In this document: positions 48,663-58,590 of the stretch, piece after piece
How the letters are laid out: the number at the start of each line of letters is the position of its first letter
Numbering within the stretch: position 1 is the first letter of the stretch
Source: Haliea sp.
GTDB taxonomy: Bacteria > Pseudomonadota > Gammaproteobacteria > Pseudomonadales > Halieaceae
Length of the DNA: 64,000 bases
Direction: 5' to 3'
Assembly: GCA_024642265.1 (NCBI GenBank)
Contig: JAHEBL010000006.1
Coordinates: 1 to 64,000 of the forward strand
Notes under the pieces: model-generated
What the model was told of the DNA's origin: nothing
Database searches by the model: none
The model's input: the letters and a program-made list of their open reading frames with translations, nothing else
Position numbers and translations under genes: made by a program

Positions 48663-49745
48663 CTAGTGTGCCGCGCCCAGAGCCAGTGCGCGAGCTTTGG
48701 TATTGGCGCTGTCGTCTATGTCATCAAGCCATCCTGACAACTGCTCCGCTATGATGGCGGCCAGGGCCTCGATATGGCCCGGCTCGCTGTTGAGACAGGG
48801 AATATAGTCGAATGTTTCCCCGCCGGCCGACAGGAAATAGTCGCGGTTTTCCTCTCCTATCTCCTCGATCGTCTCCAGACAGTCCGCGGCAAAACCCGGG
48901 CAGACCACCTGCACACTCTTTATGCCCTGGCCCGGCAGAGTCTTGAGGGTGGCGTCGGTGTAGGGCTGCAGCCATTCGGCCTTGCCAAAACGCGACTGGA
49001 AGGTGGTCAGGTAAGAGGACTCGGACAAGCCCAGCTCCTGTGCCACCAGGCGCGTGGTCTTGTGGCACTGGCAGTGGTAGGGGTCGCCCTGGTCGAGGTA
49101 GCGCCGTGGCTCACCGTGGTATGAAAACAGCAGTTTGTCGGCACTGCCATGCCGCTCGCGGTGCGCGCGGATGCTGTCGGCCACGGCACTGATATAGGCC
49201 GGGTGGTCGTGGTACTGGCTGACAAAACGCAATTGTGGCAGCCAGCGGCGCCGGGTGAAGTCCGCCCCCAGTGCGTCGAAGGTCGAACCGGTAGTCGCGC
49301 CGCTGTACTGGGGATACAGGGGCAGTACCAGCAGTTTTGTGACGCCCTGATCGATCATGCCCTGCAGTGTCCCGGCAATGTCCGGGGTGCCGTAGCGCAT
49401 GGCGAAATCGACGATCAGCTGTTCGCCGAAGCGCGCCTGCAGTGTCCTGCCCAGAGCCTGCGCCTGGTCGCTGGTGTGAAACATCAGGGGTGAGCCCCGC
49501 TCTGTCCAGATCTTGCGGTAGTTGGCTGCCGAGCGCGACGGGCGGATCCGGAGAATGATCCCGTGCAGGATCAGCCACCAGACCGGCCTGGGAATCTCCA
49601 CCACCCTGGGGTCCCAGAGGAATTGTCGCAGGTACTTGCGCAGGGCTTTGCTGTCCGCTGCGTCCGGGGTGCCGAGATTGGTAAGGAGAACGCCTACGCG
49701 TGGGCGCATCCCGTGGTCGAAATTCTTGCTGCCGATATATTTCAT
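48663..49745 (-). CDS. hemH: Ferrochelatase
   Basis: HemH, 360 residues, inserts Fe(II) into protoporphyrin IX, the last step of heme synthesis. GVLLTNLGTPDAADSKALRK is the N-terminal signature. The catalytic region includes LLFSYHGEPRRYLDQGD and VQVVCPGFAADCLETIEEI. The start MKYIGSKNFDHG (49745) matches marine gammaproteobacterial relatives as I recall them. The promoter at 49753-49781 places transcription start about at the ATG. The neighbouring cytochromes demand large amounts of heme, but co-regulation is not shown. Confidence 0.95.
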   Translation of the reverse strand: MKYIGSKNFDHGMRPRVGVLLTNLGTPDAADSKALRKYLRQFLWDPRVVEIPRPVWWLILHGIILRIRPSRSAANYRKIWTERGSPLMFHTSDQAQALGRTLQARFGEQLIVDFAMRYGTPDIAGTLQGMIDQGVTKLLVLPLYPQYSGATTGSTFDALGADFTRRRWLPQLRFVSQYHDHPAYISAVADSIRAHRERHGSADKLLFSYHGEPRRYLDQGDPYHCQCHKTTRLVAQELGLSESSYLTTFQSRFGKAEWLQPYTDATLKTLPGQGIKSVQVVCPGFAADCLETIEEIGEENRDYFLSAGGETFDYIPCLNSEPGHIEALAAIIAEQLSGWLDDIDDSANTKARALALGAAH

Positions 49746-49752
49746 GGTGGCC

Positions 49753-49781
49753 AATATACGTATGCCCGGGGCCGATGCCAA
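49753..49781 (-). promoter_or_regulatory. Predicted promoter of hemH
   Basis: On the minus strand TTGGCA (49781-49776), 17-base spacer, TATATT (49758-49753). The -10 ends only 7 bases before the ATG, so the mRNA may be leaderless. Confidence 0.6.
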
Positions 49782-49857: not shown

Positions 49858-52167
49858 CTAGTCTCCGACAGGGTGCACCACGCTCACATCCGCTGTGCGT
49901 CCGGAGCCGTGGCAAACAGAGCACTGTTCCACCACCTCGCCGCTGTCGATGTCCTCCTGGCTGGTGTCGAAGCTACCGCCATTGGCAACCATGTGGGCTG
50001 CGGCTTCCCCACCGTCGTGGCAGCTTGAACAGGCTGAGGTGACCGGTGTGATCACCGTATCGTCTACCGGGCTCTCGTGGTCCGCGCCGGTATCGATGGT
50101 GGTACCGAGTACTCCTGAAGGCAGCGGCAGGGTGTAGCCGCTGTCAGTGTGACACGTCACACAGTTGCCCAGGTTGCCGGGGTAATGCACGGTATTTTCA
50201 TCGTAGACATAGGTGCTGAAGCCCCTGAAGCCGACGATCTGCAGCGGGTTCTCGCGGATACCGGCCGCGTGTATGCCGTGCACCATGCGTGCGAAGTCGA
50301 GTGATTCCTCATCCTTGCCGTCAGTCGGCGGGTTGGAGGCGATCCCGCGCACTTCGCGATCGGTGTTGCGCGGATTGTGGCAGGTGACGCAGACCTGCAG
50401 GTCGTCGGTGCGGTTGCTGCCGTGCAGGCTGAGTGACTGGTGGCAGCTCAGGCAGTTCTCCAGCTCAACCGGGCTGCGGCGGGGTACCGCCTGGCCGTCC
50501 GCCTCATTGATGTTGAAGAACTGATGGGCGTTGGTGAACGCGATGCGCTGCTCGTCGGGCTCCTCCTCACTGCCGAGGTTAACCGCCGGGTGGCCTTCAA
50601 TAGCCGCCACGCCACTGCCTTCAGCGGGAATAAAGGGGCGCTCGTCGCCATCGGGGATAGCAACGCTCGACTGGACGATGTAGCTGCCATCGCCAACCGG
50701 TGTGCCCTGCAATGCATCCAGGCTGACCGCGCTGGCGTCCTCTGCACCGTTGCCGGTGTTGGTGTAATCAGTGGTACTCCAGGCCAGGTCGATCGCCAGG
50801 CGGCTCGCACCGCTGGCCACCTGGGTCCAGACCGGGTCAGTCGTCAGGTCGTAGGCATCGCCGCTGGTCGGGTTGAACACCTTGTACTGCACTTTCGGGA
50901 ACTGGCCCTGGCGGGTGTTGCTGACCGCCACGATTTCCGCGGCGAAGTTCTTGCGTGCTTCATCCGTGGGAATCTGGTGGCTGTCCTCGATGCTGCCTGC
51001 GATACCGCCGCTGGAGTGACAGCTGGCGCATTTGCTGTCATCCGGCTGACCCCCGGCGTGTCGGGTGAAGTCCAGTGCATCATGGCAGCTGCCACAGGCG
51101 GCCTGGCTGGGATAGTTGGCCCAGTTGTCGCCCTGGGAAGTGAGGGTGACGTCATTGTCCGAGCCATTCGGGAACTTGAGATCCGCACCCGTCGCACTGC
51201 CCGCGTGACAGTTCACGCAGTTGCGGATGTCCTGGGGGTAGTGGAGGTTCGAGTAGTCGTGCACGCTGCCGCGGAAACCGACGATGTAATAGGGATTGCC
51301 CTCCTGCACGCTGGGCAGGTTGGCGCCCATGTGGATCTTGTGGATCATTACTTTCATATCCACTGTGTTGGTGCTCTCGGGGTCAACCGACCCGGGGTTG
51401 TGGCAGGCAACGCAGTATTTGATTTCCTGGCGGCCGCCACCGTGCAGTGCCAGGGGATCATGACAGCGGTTGCAGTTGGCGGTAGCGGCGATATCCATGC
51501 TCGCGATGCCGTCGGTCGCCCCGGTGGCGGGTACCCAGTCCCGGTTGGGGTTGGCCTTGCCGGGCGCATTGTCGAACTGGATAACCACCCGGTGGGTAAG
51601 ATTCGGATTATAGGACAGGTCGAGGCCCTCTTCTGCGGCCTGGTCCAGGATGTCCTGGGGCAGATTTGTCAGGCTGGTCTCATACTGATAAGAATAAATG
51701 CCTTCACCATTGTTGGTGAACACGCCGCTGCGCTCATAGGTCGCCTGCAGCTGAGGTTCGGTGCCCGGGAAGTCGCCTTCCGGCTCTGCGATCGCATTGA
51801 CATAGGACTGCCAGCTGCCGGTCATACTACCCTGGGCGCTGGTTTCGAGCTTGGCTACCACAAAGCGCACATCGTCGACCGTCAGGTCGGTGATGGCGAC
51901 ATTGTTCTCGTCGCTGAGTTGGAACGTGATCACCGGCTGGTCGTCGCCGTTCAGGCTCGCCTCGGTGATAAAGGCATTGAGGACCGTTGCCTCCGCGTAG
52001 GGGTTCGCAGACGGTGTCGGCGGAATCGGTTCCGGTGGTATCGGCTGCCCGGGAGGCGGCGGTCCGGGCTCCACGCCGGGGGCACTGTTGCCACCGCCCC
52101 CGCCGCCACAGGCGACGAGCAGGCCAAGTGTGCCGGCCATTATCCAGTTGCGCGTGTTTGTAAGCAT
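49858..52167 (-). CDS. mtrC: OmcA/MtrC-family decaheme outer-membrane cytochrome
   Basis: Protein of 769 residues with a lipoprotein signal (LLVACGGGG, Cys20) and ten CXXCH heme motifs, at C232, C252, C317, C358, C380, C572, C593, C669, C713 and C749. The layout is that of surface MtrC/OmcA cytochromes: beta domain I (about 60-220), five hemes, beta domain III (about 395-565), five hemes. Such proteins pass electrons from the MtrAB conduit to extracellular acceptors, or the reverse. It is the last gene of the operon, 19 bases after the porin gene and before a terminator. The terminal acceptor cannot be inferred. Confidence 0.95.
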   Translation of the reverse strand: MLTNTRNWIMAGTLGLLVACGGGGGGNSAPGVEPGPPPPGQPIPPEPIPPTPSANPYAEATVLNAFITEASLNGDDQPVITFQLSDENNVAITDLTVDDVRFVVAKLETSAQGSMTGSWQSYVNAIAEPEGDFPGTEPQLQATYERSGVFTNNGEGIYSYQYETSLTNLPQDILDQAAEEGLDLSYNPNLTHRVVIQFDNAPGKANPNRDWVPATGATDGIASMDIAATANCNRCHDPLALHGGGRQEIKYCVACHNPGSVDPESTNTVDMKVMIHKIHMGANLPSVQEGNPYYIVGFRGSVHDYSNLHYPQDIRNCVNCHAGSATGADLKFPNGSDNDVTLTSQGDNWANYPSQAACGSCHDALDFTRHAGGQPDDSKCASCHSSGGIAGSIEDSHQIPTDEARKNFAAEIVAVSNTRQGQFPKVQYKVFNPTSGDAYDLTTDPVWTQVASGASRLAIDLAWSTTDYTNTGNGAEDASAVSLDALQGTPVGDGSYIVQSSVAIPDGDERPFIPAEGSGVAAIEGHPAVNLGSEEEPDEQRIAFTNAHQFFNINEADGQAVPRRSPVELENCLSCHQSLSLHGSNRTDDLQVCVTCHNPRNTDREVRGIASNPPTDGKDEESLDFARMVHGIHAAGIRENPLQIVGFRGFSTYVYDENTVHYPGNLGNCVTCHTDSGYTLPLPSGVLGTTIDTGADHESPVDDTVITPVTSACSSCHDGGEAAAHMVANGGSFDTSQEDIDSGEVVEQCSVCHGSGRTADVSVVHPVGD

Positions 52168-52186: not shown

Positions 52187-54451
52187 CTATTCCCAGTGAT
52201 AAATCACTGATGCGCCCACATAGTTGATCTGTTCGTTCGGGTTGCCCTGGCCGAAGGTCAGCACCTTGCCGATCGTATCCGGCTGCACACCTTGCCAGGC
52301 CCAGTCGTCGCTCTTGTAATCGTAGAACTGGTAATCCAGCTGCAGGAACAGGTTCTCCTGCATGTGCCAGATACCGCTGAGGCGCACGTTGTGCAGGGTG
52401 GTGTTGACCGTCGGCAGGTTGCTGGCCACAAGGCTGCTGGTGGCCCTGGTGCCCAGGTTCTGCTCTGCCTGGGTGTCGACATAGCTGTAGTCAAAGCTGA
52501 CCTCGACATCCTTGGTCACCTGCCACTGGACGTTGGCGCCCAGGGTGATGCTGGTGTCCTCCGCTTCGCCCGTCCAGTTCTGGTTGGGGTCGCTGGCCTG
52601 CGGCAGTGGGGGGTATACCACAAATGCATTTTTCTCCGGCCCGCCGCGGAAAGCCCGGCTGCTCTGGTCCGCGCTGTAGTAGTCATAGCCCCCGTACAGG
52701 CTGGCGGACAGTGTTTCGCTGACGATATAACTGGCACTCAGGTGACCGCGGTACCACTCGTCCTCGGTCAGGCCGAGCTCGCTCGCGCCGTAATCGTTGT
52801 CAATCCACTGCAGGTTGAGGCTCAGGTTCCACTGGTCCGTGGGCAGAAAGTTGAAATCCGCGCTGGTCTGCCACTGATCCCGGTTAGCCATGTAGTATTT
52901 CATGAGTTCGGGATGGCTGATGTAGCGCTCGGTATCCGGGGTGGCGTTGATCAGCTCGGTATCCAGCAGGGCGTAGTAATTCTGCGCCCATTCGTAGGTA
53001 TCCGCCGCGCGGTCGGCATAACTCACTTCCAGCCGGGTGGTGAAGTTCGACCAGGGCTGGATGCGGTAACCGAGGGTGTAGCGATCCTGTTCGGTTTCCT
53101 CCACGGGTGCGTTTTCCCGGGTCACTTTCTCGTATTCGTACTCGAAGCTCAGCTTGCTGCGCATGGGCAGGCGGTAGCTGACCTCAAAACCGGGGGTTTC
53201 GGAGCGGTAATCGTGGTTGGTGTTGTATACCGTCAAGGCGGTGCCGGGCTGGTTGCTGCCGTCGCCGCGTATATACTGGTAGCCATTGCGATCGGCGTCG
53301 TAATCCCGGTTGCGGTACTTGTAGAACACCTCCGCGCTGAGTTTCGGCAGCGGGTTCAGCAGCAGGCGGGTATTGAAGGTACTGTTGTCCACCTCGCCGT
53401 CGTAGCTGTTTTTCGGCACAGGTACGGTCACCGCCAATGCCGGGTTGACACTGTAGTCGAGGAAATCCTGGTTCTGGGAGGCCACCGCGTAGCTGCCGTC
53501 CACCTGCAAGCGGATGGTCGGGGAGAAAATGTACTGGCCGATCACCCGTCCGCCCATCTGGTCGTTATCGGGCGCCAGGCCGAGGCCGCCGATACCCGCA
53601 GGGTAGCGGACATTGGGGCCATAGGAGCTGTAGGGGTTCTGCCAGGTCAGCACGTCGTCCTGGTTGTCGAATTCCGAGTAGAACAGCCGGCCTTCCAGGC
53701 TGAGTTTGCTGTCACTGTAGGCCAGGCCCAGGTCGAAATCGGTGGTGCGATAATCTATGGGCTGATTCAGCAGCACCGCGTCCGCGGAGGAGCCATCGAT
53801 GTAGATCCCTGCACCGATGTCATTGTTGCCTGTTTTTTCCTCATAGGACAGATTGGTGTCCACAGTCCAGTGCTTGTTGAGACGGGTATCCGCCTTGAGA
53901 TACACCCGCTCCCGCTTGAGCTCCTGGTCAAAACCGTGCAATGACTGGTTCAGGTTGGTCCAGTCCGAGGTGGTAAGACCGCTCACCCAGTCGTCGGGGA
54001 GTTTCAGGCTGGTACCGCCGCTGAACGGTGTGCGTCCCTCGTCATTGCTGACCTGTATCTGTGAGTCAAAGCCGGCGCTGAGAGAAAATCGTCCCGCCTT
54101 GCCCCAGGTGAGCTCACCCTCGCGGGTATCCAGCCCCAGGTTGGAAAAATAACCCTGCCAGAAACTGTCGCCGCTGCTGAAATCCTGCCACTGCAGGTTG
54201 CCTATAACGGTGGCGCCTTCCTCGTGGAGGCCGTTGTACTCGCCGAACATGTAGTTGTCATCGCTGGTGTAATCAACTCCCAGCTGCACTATCAGCGGCC
54301 TGTCGGCCTGCCAGGCGGTCTTCAGCGGGGGGCGATTCTGCAGGGCCAGCGGGGCGTACTGCCCGGCCTCCTGGGCCACCACGCCACAGGCTGCCAGTAC
54401 CAGGCTGCTGGCTGCCCCCAGGTGGCAGGGAAAGCGGTTCATGCTCTTCAT
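52187..54451 (-). CDS. mtrB: MtrB/PioB-family outer-membrane porin
   Basis: Protein of 754 residues with a signal peptide (cleavage near residue 26, VVAQ) and a long series of alternating amphipathic strands, as expected for the large MtrB barrel that sheathes MtrA. It has no cysteine after the signal peptide, so the N-terminal CXXC described in Shewanella MtrB is absent. Its ATG overlaps the mtrA stop (ATGA at 54448-54451). Its position between the decaheme MtrA and the surface decaheme protein supports a porin-cytochrome complex. Confidence 0.93.
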   Translation of the reverse strand: MKSMNRFPCHLGAASSLVLAACGVVAQEAGQYAPLALQNRPPLKTAWQADRPLIVQLGVDYTSDDNYMFGEYNGLHEEGATVIGNLQWQDFSSGDSFWQGYFSNLGLDTREGELTWGKAGRFSLSAGFDSQIQVSNDEGRTPFSGGTSLKLPDDWVSGLTTSDWTNLNQSLHGFDQELKRERVYLKADTRLNKHWTVDTNLSYEEKTGNNDIGAGIYIDGSSADAVLLNQPIDYRTTDFDLGLAYSDSKLSLEGRLFYSEFDNQDDVLTWQNPYSSYGPNVRYPAGIGGLGLAPDNDQMGGRVIGQYIFSPTIRLQVDGSYAVASQNQDFLDYSVNPALAVTVPVPKNSYDGEVDNSTFNTRLLLNPLPKLSAEVFYKYRNRDYDADRNGYQYIRGDGSNQPGTALTVYNTNHDYRSETPGFEVSYRLPMRSKLSFEYEYEKVTRENAPVEETEQDRYTLGYRIQPWSNFTTRLEVSYADRAADTYEWAQNYYALLDTELINATPDTERYISHPELMKYYMANRDQWQTSADFNFLPTDQWNLSLNLQWIDNDYGASELGLTEDEWYRGHLSASYIVSETLSASLYGGYDYYSADQSSRAFRGGPEKNAFVVYPPLPQASDPNQNWTGEAEDTSITLGANVQWQVTKDVEVSFDYSYVDTQAEQNLGTRATSSLVASNLPTVNTTLHNVRLSGIWHMQENLFLQLDYQFYDYKSDDWAWQGVQPDTIGKVLTFGQGNPNEQINYVGASVIYHWE

Positions 54452-55335
54452 CGTGTCAAGCGCGCTCCCGACGGATGGTTGGATCCATGAATCTGGCTGT
54501 GGCAGTTGAGGCAGTTTTTACCCAGCATGTTCTGGTTCGCTCTCCCGCCGGGCAGGCCCTCGCTGCCATAGGGCTGGCTGGGATGGAAGGCTGCCGCGTG
54601 ACACTGCTGGCACAGGGCCGGCCCGCGGGCGGTCAACAGGGGTTCATTGACCGAACCGTGGGGTTTGTGACACAGGGTGCAATCCTCAGCCGCCGGCGGG
54701 TGTTCCCACAGGAACGGGCCGCGTTTGTCGGCGTGGCAGCTGAAACAGTTATCGTTGACGGACACTTGCTGCAGGGCGGCCTCACCCAGTCCCCCGTGGG
54801 GGTTGTGGCAGTCGGTACAAGCGGTCTTGCCCTCGGCAATGGGGTGTCGGGAGGGCAGGTGCATTTCGGAACGCACCTGGGTATGGCAGTCCAGGCAGAT
54901 TTTTTCAGCTTCCTGCGTGCCCATCACGAGATCCTGCTGCTGGTGGGCATCGTGACAGCTGTCGCAGGCCAGGTTTTCCTGCTGGTGGGCGCTGCCGGTC
55001 CACAGGGCGTGTTCACCGGTGTTGTGGCAGGTCTGGCAGCTGGCGCTGCGCACCGCGGGATCGGACGGCCACTCGGGGCCGAAACTGACGTCCGGCGGGT
55101 TCTTGGTAGCCTTCTGTTTATGGGCCGTACTGGGGCCGTGACAGGCTACGCAGCTGTCACTGCCACCACCGGCCAGCGAGCCGTGTACCGTGTTGCCAAT
55201 GGCATGTATCGCCTCATCATCGTCGTGGCAGTCCAGGCACTGGCGCTCGGGTTTCTGTGCATGCGCCAACATGCCGGCGGCGGCAAGGGCAAGTCCGCAG
55301 CAGGCCAGCAGGAGTTTACGGTGGTTTCCAGCCAT
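54448..55335 (-). CDS. mtrA: MtrA/DmsE-family periplasmic decaheme cytochrome
   Basis: Protein of 295 residues with a signal peptide (cleavage near AHA, residue 26) and ten CXXCH motifs at C33, C62, C100, C124, C147, C173, C197, C219, C242 and C275. This matches MtrA/PioA/DmsE in length and heme spacing. In the known complex MtrA spans the outer membrane inside MtrB and hands electrons to MtrC. The family segment VSFGPEWP (near residue 83) is shared with the cytochrome encoded 2 bases upstream. No DMSO reductase genes are nearby, so the MtrA role is preferred over DmsE. Confidence 0.95.
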   Translation of the reverse strand: MAGNHRKLLLACCGLALAAAGMLAHAQKPERQCLDCHDDDEAIHAIGNTVHGSLAGGGSDSCVACHGPSTAHKQKATKNPPDVSFGPEWPSDPAVRSASCQTCHNTGEHALWTGSAHQQENLACDSCHDAHQQQDLVMGTQEAEKICLDCHTQVRSEMHLPSRHPIAEGKTACTDCHNPHGGLGEAALQQVSVNDNCFSCHADKRGPFLWEHPPAAEDCTLCHKPHGSVNEPLLTARGPALCQQCHAAAFHPSQPYGSEGLPGGRANQNMLGKNCLNCHSQIHGSNHPSGARLTR

Positions 55336-55337
55336 TC

Positions 55338-56900
55338 TTATTGTTGCTCCACCTTGAAGTCGGTTTCGTCGCCAGAGAAGCTCATGGTCAGCGGCAGGGA
55401 CACCCAGTGTCGTCCCGCCGGATTGGCCGCCCCGTGGAGAGCGATACCAAAAGTATACTTTCCATCCGGGGTGAAGGGCTTCAGGGAATCAGTATTGTTC
55501 AGAGGGGCTGTCAAAGCCACCGTCCAGTGCCCCTTGCTGTAGCTATTATTGATCTGTATCAAGTTACCGGGCTGCCAAACCACGTCAGCCAGCAGTGCGG
55601 CAACCTCAAGCTCTCCCGTGGCCAGCTTTACCCGCCACATCTCCACGAAGTCGCCCTCGGCCAGCAGTTGTTCCAGCTCTGCCGCCGGGCGCAGCAGGGA
55701 GGGCTGGCCGATGCGTTGCCGCTGGGAACGGGAACTCCACAGGTATTTGCCCGTGTGCTGGCCGCGATCCCGGGACATCCCGGGCAGGTCGCTGTGGCAG
55801 GCTGCAAAGCAGCCGCCGCGCCGGAATGCGTCATTGCCGCCATCGTCCCACATCAGGGCGATATCCGCGTCGTCTGCGGGCCCTTCCCAGTCCAGCGTGA
55901 TGGTTATCTGGTCCTGGTCCCGGGCAAAAGCCACTGTGACTTCCCGGGAAGCGGGCGCAATCCTGCTGGCCTGGACTTCACCCATGGCGGCTTCCTCGCC
56001 CCGGTGGCATTGCTGGCAGTTCCGGCCCTGCCGCAGGGGCTGGGAGCCGGGGTGGCCCTGCAACAGCCAGTCGCTGTCGGCCATGCCGGGGTAAAACAGG
56101 GTGACTGTGCGGTGGTCGACGGGTTCGGGCACCATGGCGGTCACAGCGTCAGCCGGGGCGTGGGCGACACCTTCATGGCAATCAAGGCAACTGTGGTCCG
56201 GCTGCAGTGCCCGCCGGTGGTAGCCCTTCACCTTCTCACGGATCTCCGGGTCACGCGCCATGCGCTCCAGGTTGTGACAGCTGCGGCACCCTTGCGAGCT
56301 GTTGCGCAGCATCTCGTGTTCCGCCGACTCGTGGTCGTGGGGGTTGTGACAGGTGGTGCAGGCAGGATTGTACTCCGCCAACTCCTCGAGGCCATGAATA
56401 CCCTTTTTCTGGGTCTTGTGGCAGGTCGTGCATACCTGTGCCTGCTGGTCGGGAAACAGCACCCGGTCCTGTTCGACGTGCAGGTCGTGACAGGTGACAC
56501 AGGTCAGGTTGTTGAACATGTGCAGGGCGTCTTTCCAGTGGGCGGCCTGGCCGGCCTCGTGGCAGGCCAGGCACTGGGCGTCCTGGGCGCCAGCGGTGGC
56601 GCTCCAGCGCGGGCCAAAACTGACGCTCGGGGAGACCAGGGTCGGTGCCCGGGCGTGTTCGGCACTGGTGCCGTGGCAATCCTGGCAGCCACGTCGGCCA
56701 AGCATCTCCCCGGGGTTGTCGCTGGTGCCGTGGGAGCCGGCCTGTACCTGGTGCACGGGGGAGTCGGGTCCGAAGTCATGACAGCCCAGGCAAAGGGCGG
56801 CATCGCCCGGGTCGGCGCCGGTGTCAGCGCGGGCCAACAGGGCGGTAGCGGCCAGCAACAGTGCGGCCGCGGTCTTTACAACCGGTCTCATTGTTTTCAT
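55338..56900 (-). CDS. Mosaic multiheme cytochrome with EB_dh-like domain
   Basis: Exported protein of 520 residues (signal peptide to about ARA, residue 25). Nine CXXCH motifs lie at C37, C72, C110, C134, C157, C181, C205, C238 and C295, and a CX3CH motif (CFAACH) at C364-H369. Residues 30-190 resemble the first half of MtrA, sharing VSFGPRW and CHNPH contexts. Residues 200-250 resemble the last two hemes of NapC/CymA proteins. Residues from about 310 to 515 look like an ethylbenzene-dehydrogenase-type heme-binding domain. It lies between the CymA-like and MtrA genes, so a periplasmic electron relay is the likeliest role. The function is not established. Confidence 0.85.
   Translation of the reverse strand: MKTMRPVVKTAAALLLAATALLARADTGADPGDAALCLGCHDFGPDSPVHQVQAGSHGTSDNPGEMLGRRGCQDCHGTSAEHARAPTLVSPSVSFGPRWSATAGAQDAQCLACHEAGQAAHWKDALHMFNNLTCVTCHDLHVEQDRVLFPDQQAQVCTTCHKTQKKGIHGLEELAEYNPACTTCHNPHDHESAEHEMLRNSSQGCRSCHNLERMARDPEIREKVKGYHRRALQPDHSCLDCHEGVAHAPADAVTAMVPEPVDHRTVTLFYPGMADSDWLLQGHPGSQPLRQGRNCQQCHRGEEAAMGEVQASRIAPASREVTVAFARDQDQITITLDWEGPADDADIALMWDDGGNDAFRRGGCFAACHSDLPGMSRDRGQHTGKYLWSSRSQRQRIGQPSLLRPAAELEQLLAEGDFVEMWRVKLATGELEVAALLADVVWQPGNLIQINNSYSKGHWTVALTAPLNNTDSLKPFTPDGKYTFGIALHGAANPAGRHWVSLPLTMSFSGDETDFKVEQQ
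55794..55811 (-). other. CX3CH heme-attachment motif
   Basis: The codons TGC TTT GCA GCC TGC CAC encode Cys-Phe-Ala-Ala-Cys-His (residues 364-369 of the mosaic cytochrome). This is one residue longer than the standard CXXCH. The frame is open on both sides, so it is not a sequencing slip that breaks the gene. Confidence 0.8.
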
Positions 56901-56926: not shown

Positions 56927-57496
56927 TTAGTCAGTATTGTCGGGGTGAGCGATACCTGAGTGACAGTCGATACAGGTACGTTCCCCGCTCAGCATTTTCT
57001 TATGGAATTTCTGGGCCCGCGTGCTCTGCAGCTCGAGTACCATGTGTTCAGTGTCGTGGCAGTTGCGGCACTCCTGGGAATCATTGGCTTTCAGGCGGTT
57101 TATTTCCCGCTCTTTCATAGCGGGGGCGTGAGCCGCGTATTTCTCCGGGGTATCGATTATTCCGGTAAAGTGGCCCCATACTTCCCTGGACGCCTCCACC
57201 TTGCGCACCATCTTGGGCAGGAATTCTTTCGGCAGGTGGCAGTCCGAACAGCTGGCGTGCACGCCTATCGCATTCTGGAAGTGCTGGGTTTTTTCCACCT
57301 GTACCAGCGGGTTGTCCGACATTTCGTGGCAACTGGTACAGAAGGCGTCTGTGCTGGTGGCGTGCATGGTGGCATCGAAAGCGAGTACGGCGCCGATGCC
57401 AAGCACCAGACCGATGACCAGCAGGCTCAAAACCGAGCGGGTCGGCGATGGACGCAGCAGGGAGCGCAGCCAGCCTCCGGATGACGAATCGCTCAT
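56927..57496 (-). CDS. NapC/NirT-family tetraheme quinol dehydrogenase (CymA-like)
   Basis: Protein of 189 residues with one N-terminal membrane anchor (about 20-42) and four CXXCH motifs at C53 (CTSCHEM), C83, C143 and C175. This is the NapC/NirT/CymA plan: an inner-membrane protein that oxidises menaquinol or ubiquinol and feeds periplasmic cytochromes. It starts the tight run cymA-like, mosaic cytochrome, mtrA, mtrB, mtrC (gaps 26, 2, -4 and 19 bases). A GGGGG run lies upstream of the ATG. An FNR-like box is centred about 98 bases upstream of the start codon. Confidence 0.94.
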   Translation of the reverse strand: MSDSSSGGWLRSLLRPSPTRSVLSLLVIGLVLGIGAVLAFDATMHATSTDAFCTSCHEMSDNPLVQVEKTQHFQNAIGVHASCSDCHLPKEFLPKMVRKVEASREVWGHFTGIIDTPEKYAAHAPAMKEREINRLKANDSQECRNCHDTEHMVLELQSTRAQKFHKKMLSGERTCIDCHSGIAHPDNTD

Positions 57497-57587: not shown

Positions 57588-57601
57588 TTGATTCATATCA
57601 T
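57588..57601. promoter_or_regulatory. Possible FNR/Anr box upstream of the cytochrome operon
   Basis: TTGAT-TCAT-ATCAT matches nine of ten defined bases of TTGAT-N4-ATCAA. It overlaps the stop of the UbiA-like gene and lies 92-105 bases before the CymA-like ATG. About two such one-mismatch sites are expected by chance in 64 kb, so position is the main argument. No convincing -10 was found at the ideal distance. Confidence 0.4.
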
Positions 57602-58590
57602 GACAGCAGCGTATCGACGACCACCCCCAGCAGGAACAGCGCGGTAAATTGCCGGGTGTGGCGAAAGGCCTGGGCGGAGAACCACAGGGGCCATACCTCC
57701 GCCGGGTAGTTTTCAGGCATCGCGGAGGGTTTTGGCCGGCTGAACACGCTGAACAACGGGGGCAGCCTGGGCAGGTTGATAAACACCAGCAACAGGGCCC
57801 AGCCGAAGTTGCCCATGGCCACCAGCGCCAGGCACAGCAGATACTGGGCGGCAATCATCGCCACTACCCAGTGGCGGGAGCGTTTTTCACCGAGAATTAC
57901 CGGCAGGGTGTTGACGCCCTTTACCTTGTCGGCTTCCAGTTTGTCGGTGTGCTTGCCAAACAGAACGGTGGTTGGCCCCAGGGCAAAAACCAGGCTGAGC
58001 CAGGTCACGCTCCAGCTCCACTGCCCGGCCAGCACATAGTAGCTGCCACCCACCATCAGCGGGCCCCACACCAGCAGCACGGCGGGTTCCCCCAGCCCGT
58101 AATATTTGAGTGGCCAGGTGTAAAACAGCACAAAAAAGCCGCCTGCCAGCATCAGGTCCAGGGTGAGTCCGCTGCGCTGTGAAATGAGCCACGCCCCCAG
58201 CAGCAGGGCGATTCCGGCGGTGACCCCCAGATAGCCCCAGAACTGGCGCTCACTCATCAGGCCATCCTCGAGCACGTGCACACCGTACTGGTTGCGGTAG
58301 TAGTTGTCCTTGTCGATGCCCCGTCGCGAGTCGGTGAAATCATTCAGCAGGTTATTGGTGGCGTGAGCAAACATCAGGCCAAGCACCGTGGCCAGCCACA
58401 GGTTCCACTCAAACAGGCCGGCGCGCCAGGCCATCAGCCCGCCCAGGGCCGACGCTGTAAAGGTCATGAACAGCACCGAGGCGCGACAGGCAATCAGCCA
58501 TTTAGCCACCGGATCCATGGCCTGCCATTCGCTCTGGGACAGTTTGGGCATCTGGGCGAGGGCGCGGCCCCACATTCTTACATCGATCAT
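57598..58590 (-). CDS. UbiA-superfamily prenyltransferase (MenA-like)
   Basis: Membrane protein of 330 residues with about eight or nine helices. The two aspartate motifs of the UbiA superfamily are NDFTDSRRGID (N83, D84, D87, D93) and KHTDKLEADKVKGVNTL (D216, D221). The spacing after the first motif, with GVHVLEDGLMS, resembles MenA (dihydroxynaphthoate prenyltransferase) more than UbiA, but the substrate is uncertain. It lies between nnrS (28-base gap) and the CymA-like gene (101 bases). A role in making the quinone used by that operon is an inference. Confidence 0.85.
   Translation of the reverse strand: MIDVRMWGRALAQMPKLSQSEWQAMDPVAKWLIACRASVLFMTFTASALGGLMAWRAGLFEWNLWLATVLGLMFAHATNNLLNDFTDSRRGIDKDNYYRNQYGVHVLEDGLMSERQFWGYLGVTAGIALLLGAWLISQRSGLTLDLMLAGGFFVLFYTWPLKYYGLGEPAVLLVWGPLMVGGSYYVLAGQWSWSVTWLSLVFALGPTTVLFGKHTDKLEADKVKGVNTLPVILGEKRSRHWVVAMIAAQYLLCLALVAMGNFGWALLLVFINLPRLPPLFSVFSRPKPSAMPENYPAEVWPLWFSAQAFRHTRQFTALFLLGVVVDTLLS

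Follow-up and report, generated by a model that had tools for sequence, protein, structure and literature searches.

A three-part cytochrome with MtrA-like, NapC-like and diheme EB_dh parts in an mtr gene cluster of Halieaceae

A cytochrome of 520 residues encoded next to mtrA in Haliea sp. joins the first six hemes of MtrA, hemes 3-4 of NapC and a diheme EB_dh module in one polypeptide. The gene lies in a window of 64,000 nucleotides (contig JAHEBL010000006.1, positions 1 to 64,000), which is the whole stretch of DNA that was analysed. The layout is already in print, since Baker et al. named mtrA-DOMON in 2022 from mtrCAB clusters of their Group 6 (Halieaceae) (PMC8805035), and the window protein is a further, uncharacterised member of this family. 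An earlier note on the sequence had known of no characterised protein with this layout; the family is indeed uncharacterised, but it had already been named. The present analysis adds a tenth candidate heme site, relatives of the EB_dh head and forms that lack this head. Our favored view, with moderate confidence, is that the protein carries electrons in the periplasm, either soluble or loosely attached, that it connects a NapC-type quinol dehydrogenase to MtrAB and that it bears an accessory diheme head.

The following genes make up the locus (positions in the window):

57598-58590: MenA-like prenyltransferase, preceding the cluster, beside cymA
56927..57496, minus strand: CymA/NapC-type tetraheme quinol dehydrogenase (Pfam Cytochrom_NNT, E 5e-62)
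55338..56900, minus strand: fused cytochrome gene (MtrA-DOMON of Baker et al. 2022), an ORF with ATG start and 520 aa, recognized by heme motifs and domain matches
54448..55335, minus strand: mtrA, decaheme, DmsE/MtrA family (NCBIfam TIGR03508, 264.7 bits, above cut-off)
52187..54451, minus strand: mtrB, outer-membrane barrel (Pfam MtrB_PioB, E 3e-117)
49858..52167, minus strand: OmcA/MtrC-family decaheme surface cytochrome (NCBIfam TIGR03507, 502 bits, above cut-off)
48663-49781: hemH, after the OmcA/MtrC end of the cluster

The gene order is CymA/NapC-type gene, fused cytochrome, mtrA, mtrB and OmcA/MtrC gene. Only 26 bases separate the fused gene from the CymA/NapC-type gene and 2 bases from mtrA, which is an operon-like spacing. 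An NnrS-like gene is present upstream of the cluster within the window. The nearest relative of the prenyltransferase gene, a member of the UbiA family, was 1,4-dihydroxy-2-naphthoate polyprenyltransferase, yet the match remained below the cut-offs. The genome from which the window derives (4.2 Mb, 242 contigs, 97.7% complete) had no MenD match above the cut-off (best 64 vs 244 bits).

The fused cytochrome contains nine CXXCH motifs, at residues 37, 72, 110, 134, 157, 181, 205, 238 and 295, and beyond these a single CX3CH motif (CFAACH) at residue 364. Its parts are distributed as follows:

56826..56900, minus strand: signal-peptide-like start, residues 1-25 (by eye: positive start, hydrophobic stretch, ARA)
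56316..56813, minus strand: MtrA-like arm, hemes 1-6, residues 30-195 (HMM and hhalign against 27 MtrA)
56136..56327, minus strand: NapC/CymA-like hemes 3-4, residues 192-255, with CXXCH at 205 and 238 (HMM and hhalign against 19 CymA)
55341..56135, minus strand: diheme EB_dh (DOMON-like) module, residues 256-520 (Pfam, 50-module alignment, fold matches)
56004..56018, minus strand: ninth heme site CQQCH, residues 295-299 (kept in 50/50 modules)
55794..55811, minus strand: tenth candidate heme site CFAACH, CX3CH, residues 364-369 (C364, C368 and H369 in 50/50 modules)
55407..55409, minus strand: H498, candidate second axial ligand of the tenth heme (49/50 modules)

Each part was searched separately with profiles and matched its own family. 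HMMs were built from 27 MtrA and 19 CymA proteins and applied to 18 family members; this set omits L053, which is cut by a contig end, and L057, which is frameshifted and has seven CXXCH motifs. Residues 30-195 reached a median of 120.9 bits with the MtrA HMM vs 8.0 with the CymA HMM, and the comparison to MtrA by hhalign gave E 3e-43. For residues 192-255 the median was 55.1 bits with the CymA HMM vs 12.9 with the MtrA HMM, and hhalign against CymA gave E 1e-20. The NapC-like piece of the window protein maps to CymA positions 134-188, which correspond to hemes 3-4. These results bear out two by-eye assignments of the earlier note, residues 30-190 as the first six hemes of MtrA (the border agrees within a few residues) and residues 200-250 as the last two hemes of NapC/CymA. 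The MtrA-like arm also matched PDB chain 6r2q_A (E 9e-24), which we take to be MtrA. The molecule name of this chain reads 'Cystathionine beta-synthase' in the PDB copy searched.

Profiles of complete families matched the fused protein only in part. TIGR03508 matched residues 35-213 with model positions 3-178 of 258 at 100.3 bits, below its cut-off of 192.2, and the protein thus does not pass as a member of the MtrA/DmsE decaheme family. TIGR02161 gave 26.7 vs 310.6 bits, so that it does not pass as a whole-tetraheme NapC/NirT protein either; Pfam PF03264 passed its cut-off (44.2 vs 24.1), and the CymA HMM scores the heme 3-4 part only. Pfam EB_dh (PF09459) matched with E 3.5e-13 and 50.6 bits, above the gathering cut-off of 33.3. 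TIGR03477 for the heme b subunit of type II DMSO reductases reached only 13.3 and 15.8 bits vs 169.85. The EB_dh match had been predicted for residues 310-515; the match itself held, but the module starts near residue 256 and brings its own CXXCH at residue 295.

We aligned 50 EB_dh modules, 20 from fused proteins, 22 from NapC fusions and 8 from separate genes. L048, L049, L051 and L052 were dropped as copies of L053, L054, L109 and L113, and modules with less than 230 residues (L114, L117) were also dropped; L053 and L057 were retained among the 20 mosaic modules of the module tree. A second alignment (A2) comprised 48 of the 50 modules and omitted L083 and one L074 module with unknown residues. 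All 48 aligned modules matched Pfam EB_dh at E <= 0.01, and just 3 of the 48 matched Pfam DOMON itself. C295, C298, H299, C364, C368 and H369 were invariant in all 50 modules. H498 was present in 49 (the exception, L083, is gapped there), H283 in 48 and M350 in 46 of the 50. Residues 295-312 weakly resembled cytochrome c'' (1e8e, E 0.05) and DUF1924 (2/48 modules).

An AlphaFold model built from six sequences had a mean pLDDT of 50, with 70-93 in the EB_dh core and poor values in the rest. The best PDB match of the modelled EB_dh domain was the gamma subunit of EbDH (2ivf_C; Foldseek E 7.3e-8; VIA Z 14.3, 172 residues aligned, rmsd 4.8), followed by NXR-C, CBM9 and DOMON-type domains. Dopamine beta-hydroxylase and the cytochrome domain of cellobiose dehydrogenase were among the fold matches at Z 9-10. 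Since immunoglobulin-like chains came next at about Z 8, only the top fold matches carry weight.

The fold raises the question of which type of heme is bound. In the gamma subunit of EbDH heme b is held by Met and Lys, and the soluble gamma subunit of perchlorate reductase carries heme c (PMC8840923). The earlier note had considered a b-type heme and a substrate of its own for this part, which would make the EB_dh domain a separate reaction site. The kinship to EbDH gamma and NXR-C, which are heme b binders (PMC8840923, PMC8387239), speaks for this, as does M350, which falls into the conserved-Met region of those proteins and is present in most modules. The invariant CX3CH, which is located in the pocket region of the module, argues for a c-type over a b-type heme. 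A conserved lysine was not found at the place matching the EbDH lysine ligand, and H498 is located nearby instead; the profile match ends one residue before H498. Moreover, the gamma-subunit heme of EbDH and NXR relays electrons and is not a catalytic site (PMC8840923, PMC8387239), and neither the cd1 clusters nor the PcrO/NapO work described below hint at a substrate. A b-type site with its own substrate is therefore quite improbable. A CXXXCH motif binds heme in MmcA of Methanosarcina, as shown by mass spectrometry (PMC11024163). We conclude that the heme of the EB_dh domain is probably of the c-type and attached through the candidate CX3CH site, which bacterial maturation would have to accept.

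To see how the gene is distributed, 140 genomes of the family were searched with residues 25-255 as query, and strong matches other than MtrA were counted. Matches occurred in 24 genomes, with 19 fused proteins, 4 eight-heme forms that lack the module (G001, G036, G447, G019) and one fragment at a contig end (G450). One of the 19 fused genes is frameshifted (G035) and another is cut by a contig end (G004). Of these genomes, 23 of 24 also had MtrA, and in 22 it shared the contig. In G034 it is located on another contig, and the contig with the fused gene ends inside an OmcA gene. The expectation that the protein always adjoins mtrAB was thus nearly correct. The reverse rule failed, since 11 further genomes had a match to MtrA and neither the fused nor the eight-heme form. 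The module alone was matched in 22 and MtrB in 35 of the 140 genomes, two of the MtrB matches being weak or partial (G451, G515). A weak remnant was seen in G002.

A CymA gene of the Mtr type was present in the fetched stretch of 14 of the 19 fused loci and one locus was not callable; none was found in the fetched stretch of the other four (L061, L111, L113, L115). CymA is therefore not an obligate neighbor. In three of the seven well-contexted clusters lacking both forms (L131, L136, L138), CymA and MtrA follow each other with nothing between. The existence of MtrA clusters without the fused and the eight-heme form implies that the pathway can do without the protein. In G519, broken pieces of the fused gene were seen on one contig (L114 9310-10135) with no mtr genes nearby; a second contig (L136) carries the mtr cluster with CymA directly before MtrA. 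A divergent pair made up of an NrfH-like tetraheme gene and an octaheme gene (about 437 aa, Multi-haem_cyto) was seen at L054 12995-14868. Similar NrfH-like/octaheme pairs lie near the mtr clusters of L061, L111, L113, L115, L129 and L132, and L131 has similar matches. Baker et al. probably had this pair in view with their c-cyt group 6 and ohc.

Outside this family the module was matched in 38 of 369 genomes of a class sample and in 15 of 58 genomes of a relatives sample. In these it is either fused behind a NapC tetraheme domain or encoded by a separate gene of about 320 aa. Of the NapC-fused loci (n = 18, counting L071 although its contig ends inside), 16 had a cytochrome cd1 match over 400 bits nearby and two had weaker ones (L071 with 147 bits; L078 with 108 bits and with 99 bits where the contig end truncates the match). 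Pfam confirmed cd1 in L072, L074 and L084, and cytochrome cd1 is an annotated gene product on the Azospirillum brasilense and Ruegeria plasmids. Only one of the eight separate loci had a cd1 match (L084, the source of the query). NapC followed by two EB_dh modules was observed in L073, L074, L079 and L080; in L074 the two copies hardly differ, with branches of 0.006 and 0.012, which is a recent doubling.

The separate module gene adjoins a tetraheme gene in six of the eight separate loci and in three of five further loci (L145, L146, L148); in L147, ORFs of fitting size and heme number were seen by ORF reading alone. In L069 and L081 the separate module gene is part of a cluster that also holds MtrA and MtrB matches. 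In L145 8073-11762 and L148 6840-10492 a tetraheme gene and the separate EB_dh diheme gene are accompanied by a cytochrome with two CXXCH motifs and by an ORF whose start resembles that of a sulfide dehydrogenase flavoprotein. In L064 (7956-9185), L065 (10781-12016) and L067 (8252-9454) the separate EB_dh gene is followed by another protein, which has roughly 400 aa and one CXXCH and had no Pfam match at E 1e-4. None of the five further loci, in which a minority of the ORFs was scanned, was seen to be a nap cluster, and no NapO gene in a nap cluster was found.

Published work gives an indication of what separate modules may do. PcrO and NapO of Azospira suillum PS are diheme c-type cytochromes that were called homologous to EbDH gamma and are paired with the NapC-type proteins PcrQ and NapC (PMC5845722). 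A double mutant that lacked pcrO and napO no longer grew anaerobically on nitrate or on perchlorate, and either gene restored growth (PMC5845722). In Pseudomonas stutzeri RCH2 the gene Psest_0817, annotated 'Ethylbenzene dehydrogenase', showed lower fitness under chromate with nitrate, as did nirS and nirF (PMC5554334).

Since homologous modules serve clusters of cd1 nitrite reductase, the window protein might feed another periplasmic acceptor (a reductase of nitrogen oxides or the octaheme protein, for example) and merely share its locus with mtrAB. The NnrS-like gene upstream and the octaheme/NrfH-like pairs near several related clusters are in line with this. On the other hand, none of 33 control loci, 32 of them chosen as mtr or mtrC-type and including the tested fused loci, had a cd1 match. 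The nearly constant presence of MtrA in genomes with the gene also speaks against another acceptor, and the MtrA-like arm points to MtrA as the partner. We regard this alternative as improbable.

The eight-heme forms end just after heme 8, retain all eight CXXCH motifs and occupy the same slot before mtrA. That they are frameshift artefacts was rejected, as there are four of them, each with all eight heme motifs and a stop right after heme 8. G001 and G036 had no module match anywhere in the genome, and in G447 a module remnant with stops lies behind the eight-heme form. A single origin of the eight-heme forms was rejected (p-AU 1.5e-4), and the starred branches of the tree force at least three changes when G447 and G019 are counted as one. 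With MtrA as outgroup the fused forms were basal, in a tree that held three of the four eight-heme forms. These changes seem to represent repeated loss of the head, although the number of changes alone would fit gain too.

Loss of the EB_dh part or of the whole gene could mean that the protein is a dispensable passenger in decay. The at least three changes that led to four eight-heme forms, the remnant with stops in G447, the fragments of G519 away from its mtr cluster and the weak remnant of G002 all agree with decay. Against it, both forms keep their heme motifs and the pN/pS ratios are well below 1, with 0.23-0.55 for three of the four eight-heme forms vs relatives and 0.13-0.44 in three intact pairs, synonymous sites being saturated in several pairs including three octaheme pairs. 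The fused form is also kept in 19 genomes, with the two defective or truncated copies mentioned above. Decay is thus highly improbable. Since four genomes retain only the eight-heme arm, we consider the arm as the core of the protein and the EB_dh head as accessory.

The fused proteins were separated from all others by one branch in each of three part trees, the module tree (20 rows, 100/100), the MtrA-part tree (18 rows, 100/99) and the NapC-part tree (18 rows, 100/100). From this the fusion looks like a single event. An origin of the mosaic from a NapC-EB_dh fusion by a swapped-in MtrA half was tested as well, and grouping with the NapC fusions was rejected (p-AU 0.024). This test used the 64-residue NapC piece, in whose tree the mosaic joins the Halieaceae CymA side, and grouping it with Mtr-linked CymA was not rejected (p-AU 0.18). 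The piece is short, its branch is long and separate CymA genes are mixed among the fusions, so that neither result fixes the origin.

Several lines of evidence point to the carrier role favored above: the operon-like spacing and order together with MtrA in nearly all genomes that have the gene, the Mtr-type CymA in most fused loci together with relatives that hold the same functional slot, the joint requirement of PcrO/NapO for anaerobic growth on nitrate or perchlorate, and the eight-heme forms with complete CXXCH sets at low pN/pS. The head and the NapC-like hemes would be reduced by the NapC-type quinol dehydrogenase, much as carriers of the PcrO/NapO type are when nitrate or perchlorate is respired. 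Electrons would then pass through the MtrA-like arm to MtrA, which sits inside the MtrB barrel, and from there to OmcA/MtrC. The EB_dh head would be accessory and might help to dock a particular donor. The suggestion of the earlier note that a single protein spares a separate shuttle is plausible on this basis, as pdsA was reported to be absent from Group 6 (PMC8805035) and the relatives of the module appear carrier-like.

The same carrier could also run in the opposite direction and serve electron uptake by oxidation of external donors. MtrAB homologs work both ways, and Baker et al. left the direction open (PMC8805035). The CymA-type partner and the MenA-like neighbor weakly suggest outward flow, and we consider uptake rather unlikely.

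We also propose, more tentatively, that the diffusing periplasmic shuttle of the Mtr pathway has given way to a fixed bridge of ten hemes, with a swinging plug-in head that was added once and dropped at least three times; this is possible but doubtful. The MtrA-derived arm would stack on MtrA, and the NapC-derived pair would mimic the exit of the quinol dehydrogenase. The heme b pocket of EB_dh would have been turned into a c-type site through CX3CH, and the head would act as donor adapter. If the bridge existed, the family would be a natural domain-deletion series.

How electrons cross the periplasm differs among Mtr lineages. Halieaceae are common marine bacteria, in which this protein may be the link that is missing so far. 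As ten-heme, eight-heme and absent states occur within one family, the role of each part is directly testable. The conserved CX3CH points to a possible conversion of a heme b fold to a c-type cytochrome, which can be checked.

Among known systems, the decaheme cytochromes MtrA/DmsE have hemes 1-6 in common with the arm of the window protein, which lacks their last four hemes and stays below the TIGR03508 cut-off. PdsA, a periplasmic diheme shuttle of Vibrio and Aeromonas mtr clusters, would likewise act between the quinol dehydrogenase and MtrA. Proteins of about 200-270 aa with two CXXCH motifs near the mtr genes of L119, L120, L121 and L122 are presumably PdsA. They showed no EB_dh match and pdsA was reported to be missing from Group 6 (PMC8805035), for which reasons we rejected an identity of PdsA with the separate EB_dh diheme gene.

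The NapC-EB_dh fusions of nirS (cytochrome cd1) clusters, annotated as 'NapC/NirT family cytochrome c' in the Azospirillum and Ruegeria plasmids, share NapC hemes 3-4 followed by the same module with CXXCH and CX3CH. They differ by carrying the N-terminal half of NapC where the window protein has the MtrA arm, and their modules lie across a 100/100 branch from those of the fused proteins. PcrO and NapO, as they are described, resemble the separate modules found here in being diheme, EbDH gamma-like and paired with a NapC-type partner. The window module shares these traits, with two heme motifs in an EB_dh protein and the CymA-type gene at 56927-57496 alongside, but PcrO/NapO are separate proteins of nitrate and perchlorate respiration without an MtrA arm. 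The gamma subunit of EbDH (EbdC) and NXR-C have the fold in common with the module; they bind heme b, whereas the window module has CX3CH.

The closest counterpart is MtrA-DOMON itself. No open paper other than PMC8805035 was found to use the term mtrA-DOMON, and no joint treatment of EB_dh and MtrA was found in the open literature. In the main-text sections of PMC8805035 we found no reference to a NapC piece, to a tenth site or to headless forms. The window protein agrees with the description of MtrA-DOMON in its nine CXXCH motifs, a match to the MtrA family by HMM, a DOMON-like domain or fold, adjacency to mtrCAB and occurrence in Halieaceae. MtrA-DOMON is also predicted to be periplasmic, and the window protein has a start that by eye resembles a signal peptide. 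The hemH gene at the end of the cluster is common to the Group 6 clusters and the window, and the strain label HSLHS9 (Parahaliea) is common to PMC8805035 and our locus L051.
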